A DNA stretch of 64,000 nucleotides from contig JAFIFE010000014.1 in NCBI GenBank assembly GCA_020832185.1, positions 1 through 64,000 of the forward strand, written 5' to 3'. Source of the stretch: Alkalibacterium sp. (GTDB lineage Bacteria > Bacillota > Bacilli > Lactobacillales > Carnobacteriaceae_A). The notes beneath the pieces were generated by a model. That model was not told where the DNA came from, searched no databases, and saw nothing but the letters and a program-made list of their open reading frames with translations. Shown one piece after another: positions 1,482-60,623 of the stretch. Every line of letters starts with the position of its first letter. Within the stretch, counting starts at the first letter, position 1. The position numbers and the translations under genes are program-made.

Positions 1482-1949
1482 TTACTCTTCTGACTTCATT
1501 CCTGATTCTTCAGACTGTTCAGGATAGTTCGCGTCCGATTCAGGTGCCTCAGACTTCTCAGAGGGGTCTTTTTCATGTTTATCATCAGTATTTAAGGGAC
1601 TTTTCGCTTCGGGTTTTACAACACCTTTAGCTATTGTATTCCCATGACCATATTCCGGTTCCTCTTTGTCGACTGTTTCTTCTTCACCAGTCAAATCAGG
1701 GTCTTCTTCTTTATCCTGTTTCAAATCTTCCCCATCAGGTTCATTTTCAGATGGTTCTTTTTCCCCTTGTGCACTGTTATCTTTACGCACGTGGTCTGCC
1801 TGACTGGGATCGATTGAGTTTCCCATATTTTCACTTTCAGTTTCAGATGTCTCTACATTTTTTGGTTCTTTATTTTCTTTAGTAATTGCGTCTTCCTCTT
1901 CTGAATTTACTTCGTCTAATGGTTGATTTTCTTTATTATTATCTGTCAT
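1482..1949 (-). CDS. Acidic, probably disordered stress-associated protein (155 aa)
   Basis: An extremely acidic product dominated by Glu, Asp, Ser, Pro, Asn and Lys, with almost no hydrophobic residues, no signal peptide and no recognisable domain. It is expected to be intrinsically disordered. Its ATG overlaps the stop of the upstream GSP17M-like gene by 4 bp (ATGA), so translation is coupled. The SDR gene follows 18 bp later. A role in osmotic or general stress is inferred from the neighbours only. Confidence 0.75.
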   Translation of the reverse strand: MTDNNKENQPLDEVNSEEEDAITKENKEPKNVETSETESENMGNSIDPSQADHVRKDNSAQGEKEPSENEPDGEDLKQDKEEDPDLTGEEETVDKEEPEYGHGNTIAKGVVKPEAKSPLNTDDKHEKDPSEKSEAPESDANYPEQSEESGMKSEE

Positions 1950-2359
1950 GTTTTTCTCTCCTCCATTACTATCTCTTCATTTACTTCTGAAAGTTCAGTA
2001 CTTCTTGGGGCATCACTGTTCGCCAGCAGAATGATTTCCCCCTCTTTTAGTGCGTCCATATAATGTTCAGCCTGATCATGGGGAACCCCATAGTCTTCTA
2101 ATAGTGAATGAGATGCCTGACTGTCATATGAACCAAAAGAAAAGGTGTCTTTAATCTTCTCCCAGACACTCTCATCCTCGACTTCGACATGCTCAACTTG
2201 TATCTCTTTTAATGTATTGAGTCTTTTATCATAATCGCTGTGTTTATCAATGACTAAAGCTAATTCATCAGAAGAATAGCCTTCTTCGTTTATTAAACGT
2301 TTGACCTCTTTCACAGTATCTTTTTCGTTCGTAAACGTTCCGAGTATGTGACGATCCAT
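1946..2359 (-). CDS. General stress protein 17M / YflT-like protein
   Basis: A 137-aa protein whose N-terminal 100 residues resemble the heat-induced stress protein YflT/GSP17M domain. It has an opening TF-x-NE-x-D hairpin, a central ELALVID strand, and a later stretch in which the GVPHDQAEHY helix leads to the GEIILLAN strand typical of the domain. It is soluble, with no membrane segment. It is the first gene of the operon, with a GGTGAGG ribosome binding site and a plausible promoter about 60-80 bp upstream. The family is induced by general stress in Bacillus; its biochemical role is unknown. Confidence 0.8.
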   Translation of the reverse strand: MDRHILGTFTNEKDTVKEVKRLINEEGYSSDELALVIDKHSDYDKRLNTLKEIQVEHVEVEDESVWEKIKDTFSFGSYDSQASHSLLEDYGVPHDQAEHYMDALKEGEIILLANSDAPRSTELSEVNEEIVMEERKT

Positions 2360-2717
2360 TCCCTCACCCTTCCATAACTATTTGTCATATTTTGTTCAAA
2401 TATCTATAGTCTTTATGTTATCACTGTATTAAAAAGTTGTAAAAGAAAACGCCCTTTCCACTGTCAGCTCTTGTTATATTTGTTAATTATGTATATTTAT
2501 TAGAATATACAAGGTTAGGTATCTTATAATCATTCCAGTAAAATAATTCATTTCTAGTAAAAAAGAGCCAAAAAAATTAATATCCTCCTGTTTCAATAAA
2601 AAAAACAGACAAAAACAAATGTTTTTTATGCATATGATGTTTTTTTTCACTCTTGTTATGGTATATTTAACATAGAAGATGTTATGGAATATAGCCCATG
2701 GGGAAGGATCATGTCTT
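2360..2717. promoter_or_regulatory. Divergent intergenic region with stress-operon promoter
   Basis: A 358-bp AT-rich gap between the divergent stress operon and the AraC-type gene. On the minus strand a -35 TTTACA (2438-2443) and a -10 TAACAT (2415-2420) are separated by 17 bp, a plausible promoter for the operon. Poly-T/poly-A tracts lie at 2575-2650. The regulator's ribosome binding site AAGGA is near 2704. I see no strong dyad operator. Confidence 0.5.
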
Positions 2718-3485
2718 ATGAAGAATCATGAGAAGAAAGAAGCGTTAAGAGAGGTACGAATCAATAAGCTTAAAGAATTAACTAGTGATTCGATGAATTA
2801 TCGTTATCTACTCCAAGATCAGTTGTCAGATGCCATTACAGCAGGTAACAGTCAGCAACTTGAAGAGACTCTTGATTTAGTCGATGTTAAAGAAGTACTA
2901 GAATACCTTAAAGAAGATAGTAACGGGGACCTCACTAGTCGTTTTAAAAATCATCTGGTGACCGTAAACACTTATGCTCGAATATCTGCCAAAAACGGGG
3001 GCGTTTTGCCACTCTATCTCCATCTAATTTTCGAACGATTTTCAATGATTATTAAAGATGCAGATTCACTGGACTACCTGGTCGATCATGTCTATTTTGA
3101 AATATTCAGAGAATACTGCCATGCGGTCATTCATTTCTCAACATCCGGTTATTCAACTGTGATGAAAGAAATCGTCAGTTATATCACTGAGAACCTGACT
3201 GGAGAATTGACTTTAACCAATATAGCCTCTATTTATGGTATGCATCCCGTTCATTTAGCCCGTAAGTTTAAACAGGAAACTGGAAATACGTTTATTGGAT
3301 ATGTCAATCAGCAGCGGGTCTATCTTGCTAAATACTATTTCCACCTAGGCGAACATCAGCTAAGCGAAGTAGCGAATTTAGCTGGCTTCAACAGCCATTC
3401 TTACTTTACTAAAGTATTTAAAAAAATTACTGGGCAGACCCCTACTAAATATTTAAAAGAGTTACCTGATCGCGAGAAGGTTTAA
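2718..3485 (+). CDS. AraC-family transcriptional regulator
   Basis: A 255-aa regulator with a helical N-terminal domain (about 1-155) and a C-terminal AraC double helix-turn-helix (about 160-250). The first HTH is the LTLTNIASIYGMHPVHLARKF region and the second the LSEVANLAGFNSHSYFTKVFKK region, followed by the family's GQTPTKY ending. I chose the Met at 2718 because AAGGA lies 9-10 bp upstream. The frame also opens at 2679, but with no ribosome binding site. The N-terminal domain is not a recognisable cupin, so the ligand is unknown. Divergent placement makes control of the stress operon plausible. Confidence 0.85.
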   Translation: MKNHEKKEALREVRINKLKELTSDSMNYRYLLQDQLSDAITAGNSQQLEETLDLVDVKEVLEYLKEDSNGDLTSRFKNHLVTVNTYARISAKNGGVLPLYLHLIFERFSMIIKDADSLDYLVDHVYFEIFREYCHAVIHFSTSGYSTVMKEIVSYITENLTGELTLTNIASIYGMHPVHLARKFKQETGNTFIGYVNQQRVYLAKYYFHLGEHQLSEVANLAGFNSHSYFTKVFKKITGQTPTKYLKELPDREKV

Positions 3486-16832: not shown

Positions 16833-18140
16833 TTAATCTTTCTCTTCTTTTTCTTCCTGCGGGATATAATCGATTTGAATTTCAAGTACACGTCTATTGC
16901 GAACCATTGTGACGGTAATTTTCATATTGTGATAATCAAACTGGTCCCCATCCTCTGGAAAATGCCCCAGTTCCTCAATAACAAAACCACTTACTGTATT
17001 GGAAACGTATTGATTGGCTTCAGTGATTCCAAACAGCTCGAAAATTTTGTCTAAATTCGCCGTCCCTTTTACTTTATACTTGGTCCCTTTACTGATTTCT
17101 TCCACTTCTTCTTCGATAACATCGTATTCGTCCCAAATCTCACCTACAAGTTCCTCCAGGACATCTTCCATAGTCGCAATGCCGATCGTACCGCCATGTT
17201 CATCTGTTACTATGGCCATATGTGTTTTTTTCTTCTGCATTGTTCGTAACAACCTTGATAAGTTCATGACCGGAGGAACAAACAGCACTTCTTTGACAAC
17301 AGTCAGCAGCGACGGATTTCTTCCAGGCTGTTGTTTGGCTTTCAGGTAACGATTAAAGTCTTTTTCATGAAGGACACCAATAACATTGTCTATCGTATCA
17401 TCGTATATGATCAAACGTGAAAAATTATGTGTCATAAAGAGCTCTTCGATTTCATCGTCAGGTGTATCGTGTTCACATCCGACCACATCTACGCGCGGCA
17501 TTAATATAGAAGATACTTCCAGGTCATCAAACTCTATGGCGGATCTAACCAGCTGGTGCTCATGGTCTTCAATGCTTCCACCACTTTCGGCTTCATCCAC
17601 AATCGATAAAAGCTCATCCTCACTGATGACTTCACTGCCCTCGAAGTTAAACACTTTATCCAGCATAACTTTCCATTTCTGAAGGATCCAGAGAACAGGT
17701 TTAAATACACCCATTAAGAAACGGATAACAGGAGTGGCACTTCTGGCAATTTCCTCACTTTTTTCTTTGGCAATTGTTTTTGGAGTGATTTCTCCGAACA
17801 GCAAAATAATGACTGTCATGACAACTGTGGCAATTGTTGCGCCGTAAACGGGAAACCAGCCGACGAACAGTAAAGTTGCTATGGCAGACATTGCAATATT
17901 GACGATGTTATTCCCTATCAATATGGTAGATAAGACCCCATCAAAATTCTCTGCTAATTTCAGCGTCTTTCTGGACCGTTCATCTCCATTCTCTGCCTCA
18001 TTTTTTAATCTAATGCGGTTAGCTGAGGTAAATGCAGTCTCAGATGAAGAGAAATAGGCTGAAAACAATACCAATAAAACTAATAAAACGATACTCCTGA
18101 AGCTATCATTGTCCATTAAATCTTCTTCCCCTACTTTCAT
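16833..18140 (-). CDS. CorC/HlyC-type (CNNM-CBS) membrane protein
   Basis: A 435-aa membrane protein. A CNNM (DUF21) domain with three to four helices spans about 10-190, two CBS domains about 205-335 (LMPRVDVVGC, GVLHEKDF, MAIVTDEHGG), and a CorC_HlyC C-terminal domain about 350-430 (GFVIEELGHFPEDGD). The family has been linked to magnesium and other divalent cation transport and to haemolysin-like phenotypes. The first ATG is supported by GAGGA 6-7 bp upstream. It is the last host gene before the prophage. Confidence 0.9.
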   Translation of the reverse strand: MKVGEEDLMDNDSFRSIVLLVLLVLFSAYFSSSETAFTSANRIRLKNEAENGDERSRKTLKLAENFDGVLSTILIGNNIVNIAMSAIATLLFVGWFPVYGATIATVVMTVIILLFGEITPKTIAKEKSEEIARSATPVIRFLMGVFKPVLWILQKWKVMLDKVFNFEGSEVISEDELLSIVDEAESGGSIEDHEHQLVRSAIEFDDLEVSSILMPRVDVVGCEHDTPDDEIEELFMTHNFSRLIIYDDTIDNVIGVLHEKDFNRYLKAKQQPGRNPSLLTVVKEVLFVPPVMNLSRLLRTMQKKKTHMAIVTDEHGGTIGIATMEDVLEELVGEIWDEYDVIEEEVEEISKGTKYKVKGTANLDKIFELFGITEANQYVSNTVSGFVIEELGHFPEDGDQFDYHNMKITVTMVRNRRVLEIQIDYIPQEEKEEKD

Positions 18141-18402
18141 ATATTGTCCTCATTAGTATAGCATATTTGATGGTTGATTGAGACTATTTTAGCTGAATAA
18201 GTATTAAGGATATGTATTGGTCATACTCCCTCATTGTTTGTCATAGTCTGATAACTTAGGATTTATTAACTCTGAAATGTACTCTATTCAACCAACTGAG
18301 AATAGTGCCTTATCCATTTAAGGCACTTATAAACCAGTCTTATAAAAAGGTACCGTTCTTGTCATTACTCCTCTGCATATTTGTCTGAATTAATAAAACA
18401 AA
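18141..18402. other. Host intergenic remainder between CorC-type gene and stranded lepA terminator
   Basis: An AT-rich stretch of about 260 bp. I see no coding frame with a ribosome binding site and no strong repeat. Before phage insertion it would have lain between lepA's terminator and the CorC-type gene. Confidence 0.5.
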
Positions 18403-18446
18403 AAAGTGCTGACCACTCATTAATGACAATGAGCAGTCAGCACTTT
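18403..18446 (-). terminator. Stranded original lepA terminator (candidate)
   Basis: An 11-bp stem (AAAGTGCTGAC / GTCAGCACTTT) with an inner ACTCATT/AATGAG pairing. Minus-strand exit is T-rich (TTTTTTGTTTTATT). It lies about 30 bp past the attL copy of the lepA 3' end, where a terminator for lepA should be, but no minus-strand gene now ends just upstream of it. Confidence 0.75.
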
Positions 18447-18477
18447 AGCAAGCACTATAAAATCATTTTGATAAATA

Positions 18478-18517
18478 TTTATTCGTCATCCAAGTTCAAT
18501 ACTGCCATGAAGGCTTC
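18478..18517. repeat. attL: copy of the lepA 3' end
   Basis: The first 22 bp are identical to 56875-56896. Two mismatches follow within 4 bp, then a 14-bp identical block (GCCATGAAGGCTTC). On the minus strand the frame reads [12 protein letters not shown] and stop, as in LepA, with only synonymous differences (GCA GTA versus GCC GTT). This marks the left prophage junction. Confidence 0.93.
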
Positions 18518-18700
18518 TTATGCTACCGATACTTTATATTGTATCATATTATCTCGTATAGTCTCTATAAACATTGTAAGTAAACTGTTTTATGGGAAGT
18601 GATTTATTATATCTTCTCGTACTGTCTTGTACAATATCATAGTTAAATTTGCTCAGTGATGGCAAAATGCAGACAAATAGATTATTTAAGCTTGTTCGCC

Positions 18701-18753
18701 TTGCCAAATGTTCTGAATGATTCTATCATAGAAATATAAGGAACGTACATTTG
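18701..18753 (+). promoter_or_regulatory. Promoter with LexA-like box for the YolD-like gene
   Basis: -35 TTGCCA (18701-18706), a 17-bp spacer and -10 TATCAT (18724-18729). Just downstream, GAACGTACATTTG (18741-18753) resembles a Gram-positive SOS box (GAAC-N4-GTTC) with mismatches in the right half. The rest of 18518-18700 is AT-rich with no gene I can support. Confidence 0.5.
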
Positions 18754-18769
18754 GTTTAAGGAGGCGGTA

Positions 18770-19183
18770 TTGTTGAAGGAAGAAACTGTAGTACTGAGTC
18801 CCGATCGACTCGGGTACAAAGATAGAGGTTTGATGAAGTGGCAAGGATTGATGTTGTCTGATCATAATGAAGCTCTGAAGAAAGCTAAACAAGAACAGAA
18901 AGTGCTGGAAGTAGCATTTAAACCCGAAATGACAATTGAGGAAGTATCTGAAGTCTTATATAAAGCGTATGTAATGAAAAAGCCCGTTTTGATTCAATCA
19001 AATATTTTAAGAGAAGGCATTCTCTACCCTGACGTAAAGTGTATGGTCAAGGGATATAAAGACCAGACTATCTATCTGCAGCTACTTAATAAACGAGAGA
19101 CCACTTGCCAGATTGATCAGATACGGAATATCGAGTTTATGAATACTGCTGAATGGTACAATAAGCGACAAAAGAAAGCGTAG
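18770..19183 (+). CDS. YolD-like family protein
   Basis: A 137-aa protein resembling the YolD-like family: an N-terminal DRGLMKWQGLMLSDH motif, then a domain of about 70 residues with an ILYPDVKCMVKGY strand pair. YolD proteins are usually encoded beside a Y-family polymerase (UvrX/YqjW type) and are SOS-induced. No polymerase is encoded here, so this is an orphan. The start is TTG at 18770 with AAGGAGG 6 bp upstream. It is on the plus strand at the attL end, with its own promoter, typical of an accessory prophage gene. Confidence 0.75.
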   Translation: MLKEETVVLSPDRLGYKDRGLMKWQGLMLSDHNEALKKAKQEQKVLEVAFKPEMTIEEVSEVLYKAYVMKKPVLIQSNILREGILYPDVKCMVKGYKDQTIYLQLLNKRETTCQIDQIRNIEFMNTAEWYNKRQKKA

Positions 19184-19264
19184 AGAAATCTGCGCTCTTT
19201 TATTAAAGAAATTTAAGGGAAATTAACATCATGAACAAGTATACTCTACTTAAGGAGGTGTTCG

Positions 19265-19462
19265 ATGGAGGAATGGATTCAGCTTTATAGCAATGGATTA
19301 ATTTTATCTAGGATTACCATACATATTAAAGATAGAACTGTTATTGTAAGACACGTAAAGGATTTGAAGATGATCGTCTACGAAACTAAGGATGAGGCTA
19401 TTATTTCTGCTACTGCTTTAGCATTGCAATATAGAGCTATTGACGAGTCTTTTGACAAATAA
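19265..19462 (+). CDS. Small phage hypothetical protein (65 aa)
   Basis: It starts at an ATG preceded by AAGGAGG with 6-bp spacing, a very strong ribosome binding site. The product is a small alpha/beta protein with no membrane segment and no family I recognise. It is co-oriented with the YolD-like gene 80 bp upstream, probably in the same transcript. Its stop is next to the terminator of the convergent structured RNA. Confidence 0.7.
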   Translation: MEEWIQLYSNGLILSRITIHIKDRTVIVRHVKDLKMIVYETKDEAIISATALALQYRAIDESFDK

Positions 19463-19639
19463 AAAAGCCCTCCAATTAAGGAAGGCTTAAGACTATGTAG
19501 GTACGGGGTAAAACTTTCCAAACCCCCGCAACCTCTCCTGTATCCGGCAATCGTCATTGCTTTCAACAGTCAGAAGCTTTTACTCAGCAGCTTTCGCTCT
19601 GAGACCTACAGTACACCTGTTACAGTGAGTGTAGATTTG
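19458..19639 (-). ncRNA. Candidate structured non-coding RNA of the prophage
   Basis: The minus strand shows a complete small-RNA unit. An extended -10 TGGTATACT (19645-19653) is followed by about 175 nt with nested helices and an intrinsic terminator (9-bp stem 19465-19473 / 19480-19488, T run at 19461-19466). P1 pairs 19604-19612 with 19492-19502, with a 2-nt bulge. It encloses P2 (19583-19603, GAAA tetraloop), P3 (19566-19576 with 19532-19541) capped by P3a (19547-19560, GCAAU/AUUGC), and P4 (19503-19508 with 19524-19529, GCGGGG/CCCCGU). No ORF with a ribosome binding site explains it. I cannot match it to a known RNA family. Confidence 0.6.
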
Positions 19640-19692
19640 TTTATAGTATACCATATAAGAAAGATTTTTTAACCTGGTCGATTTCGACTAGT

Positions 19693-20928
19693 TTAAAATC
19701 TATTTTGATTTAATCTGTGCTGCAATTCTTTGACTACTGCACTTCCGGTTCTGCTGATAGCACCTGTTTGAGGCGTACCCATACTCTTCTGTAGGGCAGT
19801 CAGAGTAAGTGGTCCTAGCAATCCACCTTGTTGATTTTGTGGCAATCCTAGTCTTTTCTGCATTTCTCGAACCACTAGCGATCCCCCAGTACCGAATTGA
19901 ACAGACGGGATATTAAGAGTTATAGCAGTTCTTGCTTGTCCTCCCATCAATCCAGTTGGCTGCGTTCCTAATACTTGCTGCAATCGTCTAGTCGTCGCCT
20001 GTCCCCATGATCCATCTACTTCCAGACGAGCGACGTTGTTATTTGTAGGTTTCTGACCGTCTCTCAGTATAGAAAGAAGCTCGATATTCTGATCAGCAGT
20101 ACCGGTATAATTACGGATCCCTAACTGTTCAGAACGTCTTTTACGAGCAGCAAACGAGCTATCCTCTCCGATGCTTTCCAGGTATCGAGTAATAGAGTTC
20201 CCTGCATAGGCCGGACTCTTTTTCTCTTCTACTGTAGCTTTATCGGTGGACTTAGTCGGAATGTTGATTGCTTGTCCGATACGTAGTGTAGTTGGATCCA
20301 CGTTAGGATTAGCATGCTGCAGGTCTATCACTTCAAATTCTCTTCCTTTAGCAATGCTCCAGAAGGTATCTCCCTGTTGGACTGTGTATTTATTCCCTAT
20401 TTGTTTCGGTTCATCTTTTTCTACTTTAGCGTTTAGAACAGTATTGTAGTCGAATATACAGCACCCTTTCCAAGAGTATCCAGGATATTCGTGGTGTGAT
20501 CTAATGCGTTTGATTTGAGAATACTCTTTCTTCAAACGATCGACTAAGCGGTTTAAGCTTCGTTTTTGTGCATCTGTTGGTTCTTCAGTTCTGAAATCGC
20601 CTGTCAGACAAATGCCAATGGAGAAGTTGTTTGAATTTCCAACATGGTATGTTCTCCAGTTGACCGGATTACAGAATAGAATGTCTCCATTAGGCTCGAT
20701 TACATAAGAGTATCCAATCCCTGGCCAATCATGCGTATGCACGTGGAACCGAGCATATCCGGCTGCGTTTGCACCTGCTAATCCCATTCTTACTAAAGCA
20801 TGATGAATTGCAATCTCCGTTTTACTGTTAATATCTAAGACTGGAAAACGTTTCGTTGCATGTCTTGGTATTGAGTTTCTTACATCCTTAAATTGTGGTA
20901 AATCAGTAAACAATCCGTGTACAGTCAT
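19693..20928 (-). CDS. Phage endolysin: Amidase_2 with LysM and C-terminal binding repeats
   Basis: A 411-aa lysin. Residues 20-165 form an Amidase_2/PGRP zinc amidase with candidate ligands His42 or His43, His145 or His146 and Cys156. A LysM domain is at 180-225 (YTVQQGDTFWSIA ... IGQAINIP). Residues 238-290 hold a phage-lysin segment (SSFAARKRRSEQLGIRNYTG). The C-terminal 120 residues carry repeats beginning VDGSWGQATTRRLQ that look like peptidoglycan-binding modules. It cleaves MurNAc-L-Ala bonds at the end of the lytic cycle. It directly abuts the holin gene and has no signal peptide, as expected for holin-dependent release. Confidence 0.93.
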   Translation of the reverse strand: MTVHGLFTDLPQFKDVRNSIPRHATKRFPVLDINSKTEIAIHHALVRMGLAGANAAGYARFHVHTHDWPGIGYSYVIEPNGDILFCNPVNWRTYHVGNSNNFSIGICLTGDFRTEEPTDAQKRSLNRLVDRLKKEYSQIKRIRSHHEYPGYSWKGCCIFDYNTVLNAKVEKDEPKQIGNKYTVQQGDTFWSIAKGREFEVIDLQHANPNVDPTTLRIGQAINIPTKSTDKATVEEKKSPAYAGNSITRYLESIGEDSSFAARKRRSEQLGIRNYTGTADQNIELLSILRDGQKPTNNNVARLEVDGSWGQATTRRLQQVLGTQPTGLMGGQARTAITLNIPSVQFGTGGSLVVREMQKRLGLPQNQQGGLLGPLTLTALQKSMGTPQTGAISRTGSAVVKELQHRLNQNRF

Positions 20929-21192
20929 TTATTCTCCACCTTTCGTAATTGAGTGAACCCCATCGTATAAGCCACTAGCTGCTGCCCCGCTAAAGAACCC
21001 GGCTAATCCGTAAAGGAATAGGCCTTCCCCTAGAGCTACTGCGAAAATAAGCCCGATTCCTATTCCAATACCTACACTGACGTAAGGCAACCATCTAGTA
21101 TTGATGTCCGACTTAATCAGTTGTACAAAAAAAGCGATGACCGGGGCCATCACTGCTGCTAATACCATTGCTTCATTTAGTAATATTTCCAT
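20929..21192 (-). CDS. Phage holin
   Basis: An 87-aa membrane protein with two to three hydrophobic segments (about 6-26, 36-57 and 60-75) and a charged C-terminus. It lies immediately upstream of the endolysin with adjacent stop and start. Size, Gly-rich last segment and position match small siphovirus holins (r1t/phiLC3-like). It forms the membrane lesion that releases the lysin. Confidence 0.87.
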   Translation of the reverse strand: MEILLNEAMVLAAVMAPVIAFFVQLIKSDINTRWLPYVSVGIGIGIGLIFAVALGEGLFLYGLAGFFSGAAASGLYDGVHSITKGGE

Positions 21193-21511
21193 TCTCTTCC
21201 TCCTTGTATCTTGCTAGTTCCGTAATCAATTCTTTCACTTTCAGTGTCAATTCTTTATTCTTTAATTTCATTCGAACAATACCGTTTCTAAGCTTCTGGA
21301 TCTTGCTTTGTAGCCCGATGTTCTCTTTAGTCTTCAAGTCCAATTCTGCTTTCAACTCAACAATCTCATCTCTTAAATGCTCATTGTCTTTTATTGCTCG
21401 ATCGTACCATTCAATCCTGGATCCATTGTGATTAGAGAAAAGGGTCAGTATACCTACTATGCCTCCAATCAATCCACCACCACCAAGAAATAACATAAGC
21501 CATTCATTCAA
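21173..21511 (-). CDS. Membrane-anchored coiled-coil phage protein (lysis-associated)
   Basis: A 112-aa protein with one N-terminal transmembrane segment (Gly/Ile/Leu-rich, about 5-25) and a long coiled coil (about 45-105). The frame is open to 21544, but TTG at 21511 is the best start: GGGGAG is 6 bp upstream and TTGA overlaps the upstream stop. It overlaps the holin start by 20 bp. Architecture and position suggest an XhlA-like lysis helper or spanin-like factor; this is inference. Confidence 0.6.
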   Translation of the reverse strand: MNEWLMLFLGGGGLIGGIVGILTLFSNHNGSRIEWYDRAIKDNEHLRDEIVELKAELDLKTKENIGLQSKIQKLRNGIVRMKLKNKELTLKVKELITELARYKEEENGNITK

Positions 21512-21915
21512 TCGTAACTCCCCTTCGTCGCTAATATTATGCAATCGATAATTATTTTACCCATAAATAACCAAATGGGATTAGGATAGCCGTCACCGAA
21601 TGCATAGGCGAAATTTACTACGAAGAGACCACCCCATATAAAGGCTAGTCCAATGACTGAAAGCCTCCTGGCTATGTCACAATTAAACAACATTCCAAAT
21701 AGCTGAATTAATCCAAATATGATTAGCGGGACCCCCAAAAGTTCTGGAGGTAGTCCAATCAATCTAGGTTGGAGTAATCCAACAAAATAAGCTTGATAGT
21801 GGAGGATGAACCATCCATATACCAAACTTATAAATACGATAGAGGCGCTTGTGGGGCGGTACTGTCGTTCTGATTCTCTTAGTTCTTTTAAGTGTTTTAT
21901 GTCATTTCTTGTCAT
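21508..21915 (-). CDS. Phage multi-pass membrane protein (135 aa)
   Basis: A protein with three to four predicted transmembrane segments after a charged N-terminus. The start at 21915 (MTRNDIKHL) is supported by AAGGAGG 7 bp upstream; the earlier Met at 21957 is not. It is the first gene of the lysis cluster on this strand, directly before the coiled-coil and holin genes. I do not recognise the family. It might be a second holin-like or antiholin protein. Confidence 0.6.
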   Translation of the reverse strand: MTRNDIKHLKELRESERQYRPTSASIVFISLVYGWFILHYQAYFVGLLQPRLIGLPPELLGVPLIIFGLIQLFGMLFNCDIARRLSVIGLAFIWGGLFVVNFAYAFGDGYPNPIWLFMGKIIIDCIILATKGSYD

Positions 21916-22005
21916 TAGTGTCCTCCTTTCCTGGGACAAAATAAAAGAGCCACTCAATGAGCAGCTCTAACTTGTATAATTTAAACATCTGTTCTGTGAT
22001 TCGTT

Positions 22006-22014
22006 TGGTATACT
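22006..22014 (+). promoter_or_regulatory. Extended -10 promoter of the Abi-alpha gene
   Basis: TGGTATACT lies about 23 bp before the start of 22038, with AGGAAGGAGG between. The same 9-mer forms the extended -10 of the structured RNA on the other strand at 19645-19653. The -35 is weak. Its own promoter implies expression from the silent prophage. Confidence 0.55.
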
Positions 22015-22037
22015 CCTTGTAGGAAGGAGGTGATTAT

Positions 22038-22832
22038 ATGATTGACAAAATACCAATCAAGCCCGATTTGACCCCTGATTTCCCTATATCAACTAAAGAG
22101 AAAGTGATGAATCCAGCAGCTGATTTAGTTGGTCAGGCCTTAAGAGGTATAGGTTTAAAGGTCTTAGGACCACTATTACGTTACCAAATATATAAAGAGG
22201 AAGAGATGAACGACTATACTAAAAAAATTAAGGAAAAAACCGGGAATATTCCCTTGGCAAATAGAGATTCTTCTAAAATAGGCTTAACCTTAAAAGCAGT
22301 TGAAGATTCTGCTTACCAATTAAGCACTGAAGAATTACGTAACATGTTTTCCAATTTGATATCTGCTTCAGTAGATAGTCGTAAAAACCCAATCCTATTA
22401 CCATCATTTTCTACCATACTTAAGGATTTTTCAGCAGATGATGCTCGTCTATTTAAAACACTTTACAAAATAAACGCAGTGGCAAAAGTTGATATTCAGT
22501 TAGTAAGTTATGACAGATCAGCGGTATTACCATGCCTAGATAACTTAATGGTATTTGATGATTACTATATAAAGCATGACCCGATATCAATAAACACTTT
22601 ACATCGACTAGGATTAATTAAAATTGAAAATGCTAGTTTAATTCAACCTAATTTCAAAAGTAGTTATGACCATTTTAGAAAAACAGATAATCAGTATACC
22701 AAATTCGCTAGAGAACAATTAACTAGATTTAAAGATGAAACACCTTCTTATGACGAAATCAAGATTATAGAAGGTTATATCACTATGACTAAACTAGGAC
22801 AAAACTTAGGTAAATTAGTAGTCAGCCAATAA
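22038..22832 (+). CDS. DUF4393 / Abi-alpha family protein (candidate superinfection defence)
   Basis: A 264-aa protein resembling DUF4393 (Abi-alpha): a proline-rich N-terminal tail, a GIGLKVLGPLLRYQIY helix, and the conserved core LKAVEDSAYQLSTEELRNMFSNLISASVD near 90-120 followed by FSTILKDFSADDARLF. Family members are annotated as abortive-infection proteins. It is on the plus strand inside a minus-strand late region, has its own promoter and a strong ribosome binding site, and is visibly AT-richer than its neighbours. These are marks of a lysogenically expressed accessory gene. The defence role is inferred from the family name and context. Confidence 0.75.
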   Translation: MIDKIPIKPDLTPDFPISTKEKVMNPAADLVGQALRGIGLKVLGPLLRYQIYKEEEMNDYTKKIKEKTGNIPLANRDSSKIGLTLKAVEDSAYQLSTEELRNMFSNLISASVDSRKNPILLPSFSTILKDFSADDARLFKTLYKINAVAKVDIQLVSYDRSAVLPCLDNLMVFDDYYIKHDPISINTLHRLGLIKIENASLIQPNFKSSYDHFRKTDNQYTKFAREQLTRFKDETPSYDEIKIIEGYITMTKLGQNLGKLVVSQ

Positions 22833-22983
22833 TTCTTTCAATTGTTTTCATCCATCTCTTTTCTGATTTTTCTAATTCCAAAACAGCCATCTCGACAACC
22901 TTTCTCATAATCACAACATTTATGATTGTAGATAAGGTTATTGAGATGGCTATTATTATGATTGTATATAAAGTTAAATTCAT
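22822..22983 (-). CDS. Small single-pass membrane protein (53 aa)
   Basis: A short frame preceded by AAAGGA. Residues 3-26 form one hydrophobic segment rich in Ile and Thr, followed by a charged amphipathic tail ending KRWMKTIERIIG. It overlaps the 3' end of the convergent Abi-alpha gene by 11 bp on the opposite strand. It lies between the M14 baseplate gene and the lysis cluster, so it may be a small late or lysis protein. No family recognised. Confidence 0.6.
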   Translation of the reverse strand: MNLTLYTIIIIAISITLSTIINVVIMRKVVEMAVLELEKSEKRWMKTIERIIG

Positions 22984-23024
22984 TTTGTCATTCCTTTCAT
23001 TTAACGCACAGTTTGGTTCCTCTA

Positions 23025-26510: not shown

Positions 26511-27199
26511 TAAATCAGCTCCTTATAGTACTCAAACTTAATATTCCCTGTTCCGGTTATTGTCAGCTTGTTCTCGCCTTTCATTAACCTAAAATCATCG
26601 TTCTTGTTCTCTCCAGGCGTCACATTGAGCACCTGGTTATCTTTAGTGACTGAAAAGTTAGAATCAGCAACGATTCTTGGAACCACACTCGTTGAACCGA
26701 TATTCATTAATGTGATCTCCTGTGATCCGTTTACATCAAATTCAATGTCTTGTGAGTAGTCCAAGTAAAAATTGAACTCATCCCATACATCATTGCCTTC
26801 GTATAGCTCTGCTTTTTTAAATGGATAGCACTCAAAGGTAAGCACATATGAGGCCTCTCCTTTAGCACTGTCATCGCCTAGCTCTACACTTAAGCATTTA
26901 CCCTTGTAATAGTAAGAGCCTTCATAATCGTCTTCTATTTCATCGATTCGCCCATCTATAAGCCAATTCTCAACTCTTGTTTTAAGTAGCCTGAACCACT
27001 CCGGATCTTCAACGTAGGTTTTGACTCCATATCTAATGACTCTGTTATTAAAGACTGGCTCCCCTAACATCAGAGAAAAGTCCAAATCTCCTTGAACCCC
27101 GAATAAAGGTTCTTTAATTTCTTTCTGTTCAGGCGGTGGGGCATCTCGCCAAACTAGTTTCAATCCAAAATCTTTTAAGTGTTTCCCTTTAGTTCTCAT
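26510..27199 (-). CDS. Distal tail protein (Dit)
   Basis: A 229-aa siphovirus tail component. The N-terminal half carries the Dit-like strand pattern with VKTYVEDPEWFRLLKTRVENWL. The C-terminal half is a beta galectin-like domain (GSQEITLMNIGSTSVVPRI). It forms the hexameric ring linking tail tube and Tal. I chose the ATG at 27199, whose ATGA overlaps the tape measure stop. A GTG at 27211 is possible but poorly spaced from any ribosome binding site. Confidence 0.85.
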   Translation of the reverse strand: MRTKGKHLKDFGLKLVWRDAPPPEQKEIKEPLFGVQGDLDFSLMLGEPVFNNRVIRYGVKTYVEDPEWFRLLKTRVENWLIDGRIDEIEDDYEGSYYYKGKCLSVELGDDSAKGEASYVLTFECYPFKKAELYEGNDVWDEFNFYLDYSQDIEFDVNGSQEITLMNIGSTSVVPRIVADSNFSVTKDNQVLNVTPGENKNDDFRLMKGENKLTITGTGNIKFEYYKELI

Positions 27200-30100
27200 C
27201 TTTGACGCCACCGCCCTTTGTTCAAGTTAGTATTATCAGCCAGACTATTATCAATCCGGTCCATATTCTTTGAAATGATCGTTCCATCATCCAGAACCAT
27301 CATGTTATCTTTAGCCGCTATGATTTTGAGGTACTCAAGCATCTGATCAAATGCGGATGAATCGTTACTTGAATCAGATTGCCCTTGTGCGATTGGAATA
27401 CTACCGACTGCTCTAGCGCCCACATCAGGCATCTTGACCCTCTGCAGCGCTTTAGCTGCTGATCCAATCGTTCCTTTAAAACTGTCTTCAATTTTGCGTT
27501 CAGTTGCTGCTTCTTCCGCTTCAACACCGACGACCATTCCTTTCGGAAGCATTTCTCCAATTTCGTCTCTAAATACTCGAGAAGGAGAGCGTACTCCGAA
27601 TACGCCTTTGACTTTGTCGGTTATTCCTCCGAAGAACCCACCGACTTTCTCACCGATCCAACCACCCATGGAAGTAATCCCGTTCCATAATCCGCGAACA
27701 ATGTCTTTACCAGCACTCATTAAATCTACATTCATTGCTTCTTGAATGATGGCGGCTCCTATTTCATTTATTGCTCCTACTGCTTCATTAGCAAGCGAAG
27801 CAATCCCTTTTATCAGTTCCCAGATAAGCTCTATACCCGCAACTAGTAATCTAGGACCGTACTCCAGTATTTTCGCCAGAAGTTTAACCATCAATTCAAC
27901 ACCGCCCTGAATCAATGTAGGCAACATGGCGATTAGTCCATCCTTAAGAGCATGAATTAATTGTTTTCCTCGTTCTATAAAATCAGGTAAATGATTTCTG
28001 AAAGTCTGAATTAAAGACAGTAAAATATTCACTCCTGAAGATAACAGTTCCGGGAGAATGGCGATCAGTCCTGAGATAACGCTACTTAGAAATTGCTGAC
28101 CGACAGATATAAGCGTTGGTAAAAATCCTAAGAAGGCATCAATCAATGAACCTAATATCGTTATACCTACTTCAACAAGATAAGGTAGGACAGCACTTAG
28201 TCCATTTGCTAAGGACCGTATAGTTTCCATACCAAATTCAATAATTCCAGGAAGTTTTGATACAAATCCTTGAAGGAGTTGATTAATTATTTCCCCTGCT
28301 TTTTCTATAATGACTGGTCCGTTTTGCATAATACCGTCTAGAAAACCACCGATCATATCAATGCCTGTCCGAATCATATGAGGCACTAAAGCGGCCAAAC
28401 TAAGGACGAACTCTTCAAGTACCAATGCAGCGATATCCAGGACATCTGACAGTGAACTTGTCCCGTCCATCAGCCCTTTAAATGCTGTAATCAGTTCACC
28501 GACTATATCGTTGAAATAAGCACAGTTATTATAGAGATAGACGAACGCTCCGGCTAATAACCCTATGACACCTAAAACTAAGCCTATCGGGCTGAATAGA
28601 GCGCCTATGATACCTTTGAACAACCCCATGACACCACCGGCTTGAGAAATGGCAGAAGCCACACCGGTCACTGCTCCTTTAATGACTAAAAACTTATCAA
28701 TCATGAAGGCTCCGGCTAAAAGTAGAGGTCCAATGGCTCCGGCAATCAATGCGATTGTTCCAATTAACTTCTGTTGTTCTTCTGTCAAGTCGCCTACCCA
28801 TGCGATCATGTCTCTGAATAGATCGATGGCTCCGTTTATTGCGGGCAAGAAGGCCGTTCCTAATTCTGCTGCCACATCGATGATTTCAGCTTTTAATAAG
28901 CCCATCTTTGTCTTAGCATCCAGATTTTCTTCTGTATAGGCATCTAAGGCATCGCCTGACTGGTTATAAACCTCTGCAAGTAGTACCTGAGTCCGGATCT
29001 GGTTGTTCATTTCATCGTCTGCACCCATCAGACCCATTTCAACAGCCTTGTTTTTAACTGTTGTTGCATCTAACTGAATACCGAGACCTTGTAAACTCTT
29101 ATATTGACCAGTGATTGCTGAGCTCATAGCGTTAGTTACATCCTCAGCGCTGTGTGTGCCTGAGTTAAAGTTGGCCAGTGCTCCAGCAACGTGCATGAAT
29201 TCACCCGTCATTCCAGTCGCTTCTTCACGAGCAAATCCCATTGGTACTAGTAACGTTTATTCTCATGCTTTCCCATCGCATAAGACAGACTATATCATCA
29301 ACTCATAAAGTTGTTTACCGCTTCGAGTGGTAGCTTATCCTCCACCCTACTCCATTACTGGATAGTCGTTTGAGTTTCCTTGAAAGACCAATAGTGTTCA
29401 TATGCTTTATTCCATCTGCCTTTACATACATTAGATATAGGAGTAGCTCCGGCTTTAGGATACCCACTTGATCGCAAGTATCTAACAGCTTCAGATACAC
29501 TTTCAAAAACATGTAGTTCTTCTCTTGTTTCTAAATTGTGCATTGCTACTCTTTTTTTGTTCTTTTTGGCTTTAGCTATAGCTTTTTTCTTCTCATCGGA
29601 ACAAGGTACAGAGCTTATTTTAATCATTTTATCTCTGTATTCCTTATCGTTCGCCCACCGTTCTTTCAGTTTTTCGCTCCGGTTTCTAGACGCTTCGTCT
29701 GTGAAGTAGGCCTTCTTGTAACTTGAACGAGCAAATTCGTTATTCATCGGGTTTTCTCCCGGAGGAACAACGTTATATTCAGGGTTTATTAATTTAAAAT
29801 AAAACAATTCCCTCTCGTCCAACATTTCAGGCTCACATTCTTCGATGATAGAAAAAGCGAAGTTATGAATACCAAATGATCTAATGTCTTCGTACAATGG
29901 TAATCTTCTGAATTTAGCATCTTCTCTATGCCTTCCCCAACGTTTGTAGACATTTTTGCTTCTACCCACATACGTTCTACCATTGATAGTGTTTGTAATT
30001 TTGTAAATAGCAGATATTTTCTCCATTATTAGCAACTCCTGTATATAAGACTTGCTAATGGTGTAGCATATTACATTGATCTAAACTAGGCTTACCACTG

Positions 30101-30587
30101 GATTGCCCCGTGTTATGGAGGGTTTCCCAGTTAGCACTTTCATTAGCCGTCATTTCCTACGGTTACTGACGCCGAAAGCACACCCTTAAGCAATAAGGTT
30201 CAATAAATTTGCTTATGCTATCGCTAACATAAGGGACTTATTTTCAAAATCCTGTATACCACTGGCCATGGACCGCGCTTCTGCTTTAGTTGCTGGTGTC
30301 AGTTTCTGAAACTCTTTTATAAATTCATCTGACTGATCGGACATATTGCCAAACACCGTATAGTATTTTGCTTCTGTCGCTTCCAGGTCCATAGCCGCCT
30401 TACCCATTCCTGTAGCCATGGCCACAAGTGGAAGCGTGACATACTTGGTCATGTTCTTTCCGGCATCTTTCATTACACCGGATATGCTCTTTGCCATGCT
30501 TCCGACTTCTTTGTTAATGTCACTAATGCCGCCCATCGCTTTCGCCTTGTCCAGGTCAACATCAATGACGACTCTGCCATCTGACAT
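27196..30587 (-). CDS. Tape measure protein, interrupted by a group I intron (two exons)
   Basis: Exon 1 runs 30587-30249 (113 codons) and exon 2 runs 29253-27196. Joined they give about 798 aa. Across the junction the protein reads MASGIQD then LLVPMGFAREEATG, the continuous conserved segment of siphovirus tape measure proteins. The C-terminal part has many Gly/Leu/Ile-rich helices and a VRSPSRVFRDEIGEMLPKGM motif typical of tape measure ends. It sets tail length and chaperones genome entry. AAGGAGG precedes the start. Without splicing the frame ends 11 codons into the intron. Confidence 0.88.
29254..30248 (-). mobile_element. Group I intron in the tape measure gene
   Basis: A 995-nt insertion. 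The last exon-1 base is U (GAU) and the last intron base is G, as group I splicing requires. A P1 helix can form between exon AGGAU and intron GUCC (U-G at the splice site). The 5' core (30087-30130, minus strand) contains the P4-P6-like GGGAAACCC ... GGGGCAAUCCAGUGG. The 3' core contains GAUGAUAUAGUC (29288-29299), typical of P3/P7. A GIY-YIG endonuclease is encoded in a loop. Confidence 0.88.
29355..30026 (-). CDS. Intron-encoded GIY-YIG homing endonuclease
   Basis: A 223-aa homing endonuclease. The GIY-YIG domain spans about 5-95: IYKITNTINGRTYVG, catalytic Arg in VYKRWGRH, and a Glu within the LDERELFYF region. A middle basic linker and a NUMOD-type DNA-binding domain follow (VFESVSEAVRYLRS near 165-185). 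It cuts intronless tape measure alleles so that repair copies the intron in. ATG at 30026 follows AGGAG by 10 bp; an in-frame TTG lies 9 bp earlier. Confidence 0.88.
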   Translation of the reverse strand: MEKISAIYKITNTINGRTYVGRSKNVYKRWGRHREDAKFRRLPLYEDIRSFGIHNFAFSIIEECEPEMLDERELFYFKLINPEYNVVPPGENPMNNEFARSSYKKAYFTDEASRNRSEKLKERWANDKEYRDKMIKISSVPCSDEKKKAIAKAKKNKKRVAMHNLETREELHVFESVSEAVRYLRSSGYPKAGATPISNVCKGRWNKAYEHYWSFKETQTTIQ

Positions 30588-60515: not shown

Positions 60516-60623
60516 ATTATTCCTCCATTGCTACTCTAACTCTTCTCTGTAGGATAGATATTTCTTACACGGTGAAGAAATTCTGTAGCTACAGGGGTTT
60601 TGTTTACATTAGTTCAAAAAGAA

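Follow-up and report, generated by a model that had tools for sequence, protein, structure and literature searches.

In the 64,000-nucleotide stretch of Alkalibacterium sp. DNA analysed here (the window), a gene for a structured RNA is predicted immediately after the endolysin gene of a prophage. We read it, with a probability of about 0.4, as a stand-alone non-coding RNA gene carried as cargo, a distant and protein-less relative of the RNAs associated with DUF3800 proteins that possibly acts as an antidote or decoy, and a distant kinship of this kind is more likely than any single rival explanation. What was computed is the fold, the insertion point, the presence of a DUF3800 gene together with a DUF3800-I RNA at the matching interval of a related prophage (in genome G010), the skeleton common to the RNAs, and the result that no DUF3800 gene was found in the assembly. 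An earlier note on this DNA had proposed that the prophage carries a gene for a structured RNA, equipped with promoter and terminator, which proved to be a sound reading of the sequence; that the RNA is cargo of the prophage is a new finding.

Results

Structure of the predicted RNA

The positions of the RNA, its signals and its neighbours are collected in Table 1. The multibranched fold in which P1 closes P2 to P4, described previously, was recovered by computation, and so were P2 with its GAAA loop, P3 with its apical hairpin and P4 with its 15-nt loop; by contrast, P1, formerly drawn as 9 bp with a bulge, is a continuous helix in the computed fold. The 196-nt interval has a minimum free energy of -65.7 kcal/mol and a z-score of -4.31, with none of 200 shuffled sequences as low, and the 117-nt core without the terminator reaches -44.9 kcal/mol, with a z-score of -4.21 over 200 shuffles and -4.5 over 500. 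As a background, windows of 117 nt were taken every 150 nt on both strands, with z-scores from 25 shuffles each, which makes them noisy; the z-score of the core was reached by 1 of these 852 windows, and values of -4 or below by 6. Inclusion of the leader (core plus leader, 149 nt) gave a weaker value of -2.86, with 1 of 200 shuffles as low. Further 117-nt windows with z-scores of -4.35 or below (25 shuffles each) lie at 60601 (+), 59251 (both strands) and 3451 (+).

The UAAA linker and its neighbours could form 6 bp with the 3' part of the P4 loop (P = 0.014 with the loop shuffled, a post hoc figure), the end pair using bases that are already paired in P2 and P4. We regard it as a speculative candidate for a pseudoknot.

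Table 1. Positions of the predicted RNA, its parts and the neighbouring genes in the window.
Feature	Position	Strand	Basis
Structured RNA core, P1 closing P2, P3 and P4; 117 nt	19495..19611	-	computed fold
Extended -10 element TGGTATACT	19645..19653	-	motif search
-35 TTAAAA, poor	19667-19672	-	promoter search
Candidate transcript start	near 19638	-	inferred
Intrinsic terminator hairpin, 9 pairs, then T tract	19465..19488	-	terminator search
P1, 7 continuous pairs	19610-19604 with 19502-19496	-	fold
P2 hairpin CTCAG-AGC-GAAA-GCT-g-CTGAG, 8 bp, GAAA loop, 1-nt purine 3' bulge	19583..19603	-	fold
Linker UAAA, 4 nt, between P2 and P3	19579..19582	-	fold
P3: 7 bp, 2x1 internal loop, 4 bp, 5-bp apical hairpin AA-GCAAU-GACG-AUUGC-C	19530..19578	-	fold
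P4 GCGGGG/CCCCGU, 6 bp, 15-nt loop; abuts P3 without linker	19503..19529	-	fold
Endolysin-end block	19699-19666	-	comparison with related prophages
Terminator block	19489-19454	-	comparison with related prophages
Inter-block interval, 176 nt, RNA and -10 element	19490..19665	-	comparison with G042 (L075)
Endolysin (Amidase_2, LysM), one slot boundary	19693..20928	-	ORF list and domain search
65-aa convergent gene, marks other side of slot	19265..19462	+	ORF list, relatives
Abi-alpha gene (PF14337; PADLOC PDC-S47)	22038..22832	+	domain search, PADLOC

Promoter, terminator and coding potential

The element TGGTATACT was found in three copies, against a mean of 0.39 in 100 shuffles. The second copy, 22006-22014 (+), precedes the Abi-alpha gene; the third, at 22693-22701 (-), is antisense within that gene. 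Promoter-like sites in 17000-23000 occur at chance frequency (22 found, 19.7 expected), and seven terminator-type sites were found in the region, where 3.4 were expected. Of the proposal that the RNA has its own promoter and terminator, the extended -10 and the terminator themselves hold, but the -35 is poor and the terminator is probably older than the RNA, as argued below.

Among the listed ORFs of 50 aa or more, just one extends into the core; it lies at 19378-19566 (-), begins in P3 and runs through the terminator, and no ribosome-binding site was seen for it by eye, in agreement with the previous statement that no ORF explains the RNA. A small protein gene was rejected on the ORF list.

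The RNA occupies a variable accessory slot

Related prophages were found through the endolysin, its holin, the 65-aa gene and a neighbour that we take to be YolD-like. The gene contents were taken from six slots (L074 to L078 and L080), and L079 and L081 to L087 were scanned with Rfam and with R1, a covariance model made from the window RNA alone with its sequence entered twice. The interval after the endolysin is a variable accessory slot among these prophages: it holds a DUF3800 gene and a DUF3800-I RNA in L074 (G010) and a 268-aa convergent protein in L075 (G042); L076 and L077 have two proteins each there, one of which is a DUF6941 protein in L076 and a SocA/Panacea-domain protein in L077; L078 has three unnamed proteins and L080 an NB-ARC protein. 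In the G010 slot the DUF3800 gene (PF12686, 6.4e-13) comes before the DUF3800-I RNA, which scores 72.1 bits. The window RNA is thus prophage cargo.

The terminator resembles the sequence at the corresponding place in L074, where it lies beyond the DUF3800 gene and the RNA, and in L075. In the latter the endolysin-end and terminator blocks are 5 nt apart, so that the RNA and its -10 element amount to an extra 176 nt using a terminator that was already there. The terminator was probably part of the endolysin operon until the RNA was acquired.

Two side observations were made elsewhere. L077 has strong non-coding folds at 2430-3035, on both strands and beside an ORF that looks by eye like mnmE (z-scores from -2.56 to -4.81), with no Rfam match there at gathering score. 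In the window, a gene resembling a tail tape measure is interrupted: its two ORFs, 30213-30587 and 27196-29241 (-), flank a GIY-YIG-like ORF, 29355-30035 (-), the names being given by eye. An intron or the insertion of a homing endonuclease could account for this, and no intron was found at 27196-30587 (-) in Rfam at gathering score.

Searches for relatives

The scan against Rfam, which had been proposed as a check, gave no match at gathering score over the RNA. Below threshold, the two best matches (E 0.09 and 0.24) coincide with the terminator, and the core alone had a single match, of its apical hairpin to the mcrA RNA (9.9 bits, E 1.7). The previous statement that the RNA could not be matched to a known family is therefore right at Rfam thresholds, but it misses the skeleton and key nucleotides that the RNA has in common with DUF3800-associated RNAs, as well as the DUF3800 gene and DUF3800-I RNA at the matching interval in G010. 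A tRNA or tmRNA was considered and rejected, and a known riboswitch or leader was rejected on the Rfam results.

With blastn, the RNA matched in 1 of 41 genomes, which was itself, and no place in phages and plasmids covered 80% of the query at E up to 10; among the matches listed there (20 of 60 and 20 of 21 records), none falls in the core, all lying over the terminator or upstream of the RNA. The model R1, run with a first-look filter over overlapping sets of 27 family, 345 order and 398 class genomes, found the RNA itself and two matches with E around 0.08, which lie inside or antisense to ORFs and were taken as chance; it was also run unfiltered over the syntenic loci and the DUF3800 loci. 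In viral contigs, the pattern of the P4 loop gave 26 stretches and no full match, the single P2 match fell within an ORF of a GC-rich contig and was rejected, and of 64 candidates for the combined pattern the one that passed a loose pairing check was GC-rich and unlike the RNA. The intergenic stretches of the six related slots contain several stable folds, none of which was recognised as the window RNA. In the searches made (blastn, covariance model and viral-contig patterns), the window RNA is without a relative.

Likeness to DUF3800-I RNA

No alignment of the window RNA with DUF3800-I RNAs (RF02969) was obtained with MAFFT, so the comparison was made by structure and by hand. According to their folds, the window RNA, the L074 RNA and an RNA at the locus L127 have a common skeleton. 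DUF3800-I RNAs and the window RNA both contain a hairpin that has a CAG/CUG base and, in its 3' strand, a single bulged purine; both also have a short linker that includes an invariant A, and an apical AAGC...GCC hairpin, and in both the next hairpin abuts P3. A P3 in which a 2-nt 5' bulge separates 6-7 bp from 4 bp was found in the folds of the window and L074 RNAs and in the Rfam consensus line, and in the L074 RNA, as in the window RNA, P3 has a 2x1 internal loop followed by 4 bp. The conserved UAAGCGUA of DUF3800-I is kept only in part: of the apical UAAGCGUA...UACGCC the window RNA retains AAGC...GCC and not U57, and the inner pairs are changed on both sides.

The differences are also clear. 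In the window P2 the outer A-U pair of the DUF3800-I hairpin is replaced by U-A, and the hairpin does not stand at the 5' end, an extra leader and P1 lying ahead of it; P4 is internal and followed by a separate terminator, whereas in DUF3800-I the terminator hairpin comes directly after P3; and the window RNA has no mini-hairpin inside P3 and no DUF3800 gene alongside. An outer P1 in L160 was considered as a bridge to the P1 of the window and rejected, its 5' strand overlapping a -10-like TATTAT (by eye) and being probably untranscribed.

At the positions that are invariant among nine DUF3800-I RNAs the window RNA matches 11 of 16, counted on the columns of alignment A4 with column T1, at the 5' end, left out; in a simulation the probability of at least 11 matches given the structure was 0.0026. 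Four of the five mismatches fall in three base pairs that differ on either side and still pair; the fifth is the unpaired U before AAG. A descriptor of two motifs 10-65 nt apart was run on both strands of 1,665,514 nt, redundant loci included. It gave 18 matches, 7 of them copies of the window RNA and 11 copies of DUF3800-I RNA, against a total of 2 in ten shuffled versions of the entire set. The descriptor was drawn up once the likeness had been seen and recovers 5 of the 9 distinct DUF3800-I RNAs, so these figures serve as guides and are not clean tests. The P2 motif by itself is common (99 found, 54-76 per shuffle). Its search in 13 of the 25 DUF3800 loci gave one match, in L127, where about 0.3 are expected by chance in that much sequence (from 666 matches in ten shuffled passes over 1.67 Mb), and the motif alone therefore proves nothing.

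The covariance models were less favourable. Over 12 loci (80 kb), the top match of R1 was the DUF3800-I RNA of L151 (11.7 bits, E 0.76), with a lead of 0.6 bit, and full-length matches on the RNA and on the right strand were obtained at 2 of 9 DUF3800-I loci, L151 and, weakly, L150 (6.2 bits); over the 25 DUF3800 loci, the lone match with E of at most 2 covers a terminator-like hairpin behind the gene of G009 and is not DUF3800-I. The Rfam DUF3800-I model (gathering score 44.2 bits) did not match the window RNA, sub-threshold matches included, and R2, a model of nine DUF3800-I cores, gave 9 matches up to E 10 in the window, none on the RNA. No DUF3800 gene was found near the RNA or in the assembly of the window (G000, 95% complete). 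Because both models miss it and no such gene was found in the assembly, the window RNA is not a DUF3800-I member by test.

Occurrence of DUF3800-I RNAs

DUF3800 was present in 25 of the 315 order genomes searched, and a DUF3800-I RNA was found at 6 of these 25 loci, that of G010 included. Additional ones turned up in three Streptococcus phage records and among 398 class genomes, of which 4 had such an RNA, one of these being known already. In L157, L158 and L160 a DUF3800-like ORF adjoins the RNA and a holin- or endolysin-like ORF lies beyond (by eye), but in Javan110 and Javan73 the DUF3800-I module is near an integrase, and in L159 an integrase-like ORF adjoins the RNA. A tie of DUF3800-I RNA to the lysis region is thus not a rule, and the occurrence of these RNAs away from lysis genes slightly lowers the confidence in the main reading of the window RNA.

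At L127 (G128:C22), a fold of the same skeleton lies about 90 nt downstream of the DUF3800 gene 1483-2202 (+), with a z-score of -2.69. It is formed by an ACAG-AGC...GCU-A-CUGU hairpin, a 4-nt linker, P3 and an abutting terminator, and is not listed by Rfam.

Discussion

RNAs associated with DUF3800 were reportedly described in a paper of 2017, and in the literature searched we found no paper testing what they do. DUF3800 itself is presented in PMC10910872 as having a predicted RNase H fold and as linked to putative non-coding RNAs.

Two systems offer analogies for a function. In the AbiF system of a C. difficile prophage, as described in PMC12373285, RCd22 is the RNA that binds the toxic protein and neutralises it, and such type III-like toxin-antitoxin modules are situated within the lysis modules of prophages or downstream of them. 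The window RNA is likewise a structured RNA gene near a prophage holin-endolysin region, and neutralisation of a protein in trans is for it a proposal by analogy. It differs from the AbiF RNA in that the Abi_2 gene had no match in its assembly (G000, 95% complete) and that no Rfam match was obtained at gathering score. It also differs from type III antitoxin RNAs, since no tandem motif repeat was found in 19400-19720 at score 30, on which a tandem-repeat antitoxin was rejected. In phage PhiTE, a pseudo-ToxI RNA is described as mimicking the antitoxin and allowing escape from ToxIN (PMC3475682), and the window RNA may similarly be a phage-borne antidote without a toxin partner, although ToxI-type antitoxins are, in the same source, made of repeats and the window RNA is a single multi-helix fold. 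On these analogies, the predicted RNA would be transcribed in the lysogen and would bind a DUF3800-type protein in trans, most likely from another phage or prophage, and as an antidote or decoy it could shield the lysogen or the phage from DUF3800-type proteins.

The same locus could hold an independent prophage sRNA that base-pairs with host or phage mRNAs, for example through the P4 loop or the leader, its DUF3800 likeness being chance. The promoter-like element and terminator of its own, the lack of homologues in the searches made, the failure of the Rfam and R2 models and the long single-stranded P4 loop all suit such an RNA; we nevertheless consider it rather unlikely, the two-motif descriptor being rare (2 matches in ten whole-set shuffles), the slot coinciding with that of the DUF3800 module in G010, and a compact multi-helix fold looking more like that of a protein-binding RNA. 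The coincidence of slots would also fit a functionless remnant, left by a DUF3800-like module that has lost its protein gene, as would the lack of a protein gene between the endolysin and the RNA. The intact and unusually stable helices, and the absence of any coding trace in the 176 nt between the conserved blocks, make this improbable.

Further down the scale, it is very improbable that there is no gene at all and the region is a stable intergenic inverted repeat without its own transcript. The poor -35, the chance frequency of promoter-like sites, the 6 of 852 sampled windows at z of -4 or below and the z-score of only -2.86 with the leader are in its favour, but the core, with a z-score of -4.2 or below, is a discrete unit between two conserved blocks and has a terminator. 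Hardly credible, finally, is a two-part abortive infection system formed by the RNA and Abi-alpha, 2.4 kb apart. The earlier note had pointed to a -10 common to both, and the 9-mer upstream of each is indeed identical, the one link seen between them; they are found at separate places and on opposite strands, and PADLOC puts Abi-alpha under PDC-S47, presumably a single-gene candidate. One viral-contig scan gave no relative of Abi-alpha.

The distant kinship with DUF3800-associated RNAs remains our preferred reading. A bolder form of it, which as a whole is unlikely, takes the window RNA as an RNA-only derivative of a DUF3800 module in an accessory slot, a lone antidote or decoy against the DUF3800 systems of competing phages, with the RNA-only version and the version of protein plus RNA at the corresponding place in two related prophages. 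The results suggest that family models miss some DUF3800-type RNAs, possibly including the L127 RNA, and prophages with RNA alone and with RNA plus protein would be a natural pair to test what the RNA does to the protein, be it to neutralise, guide or regulate it.
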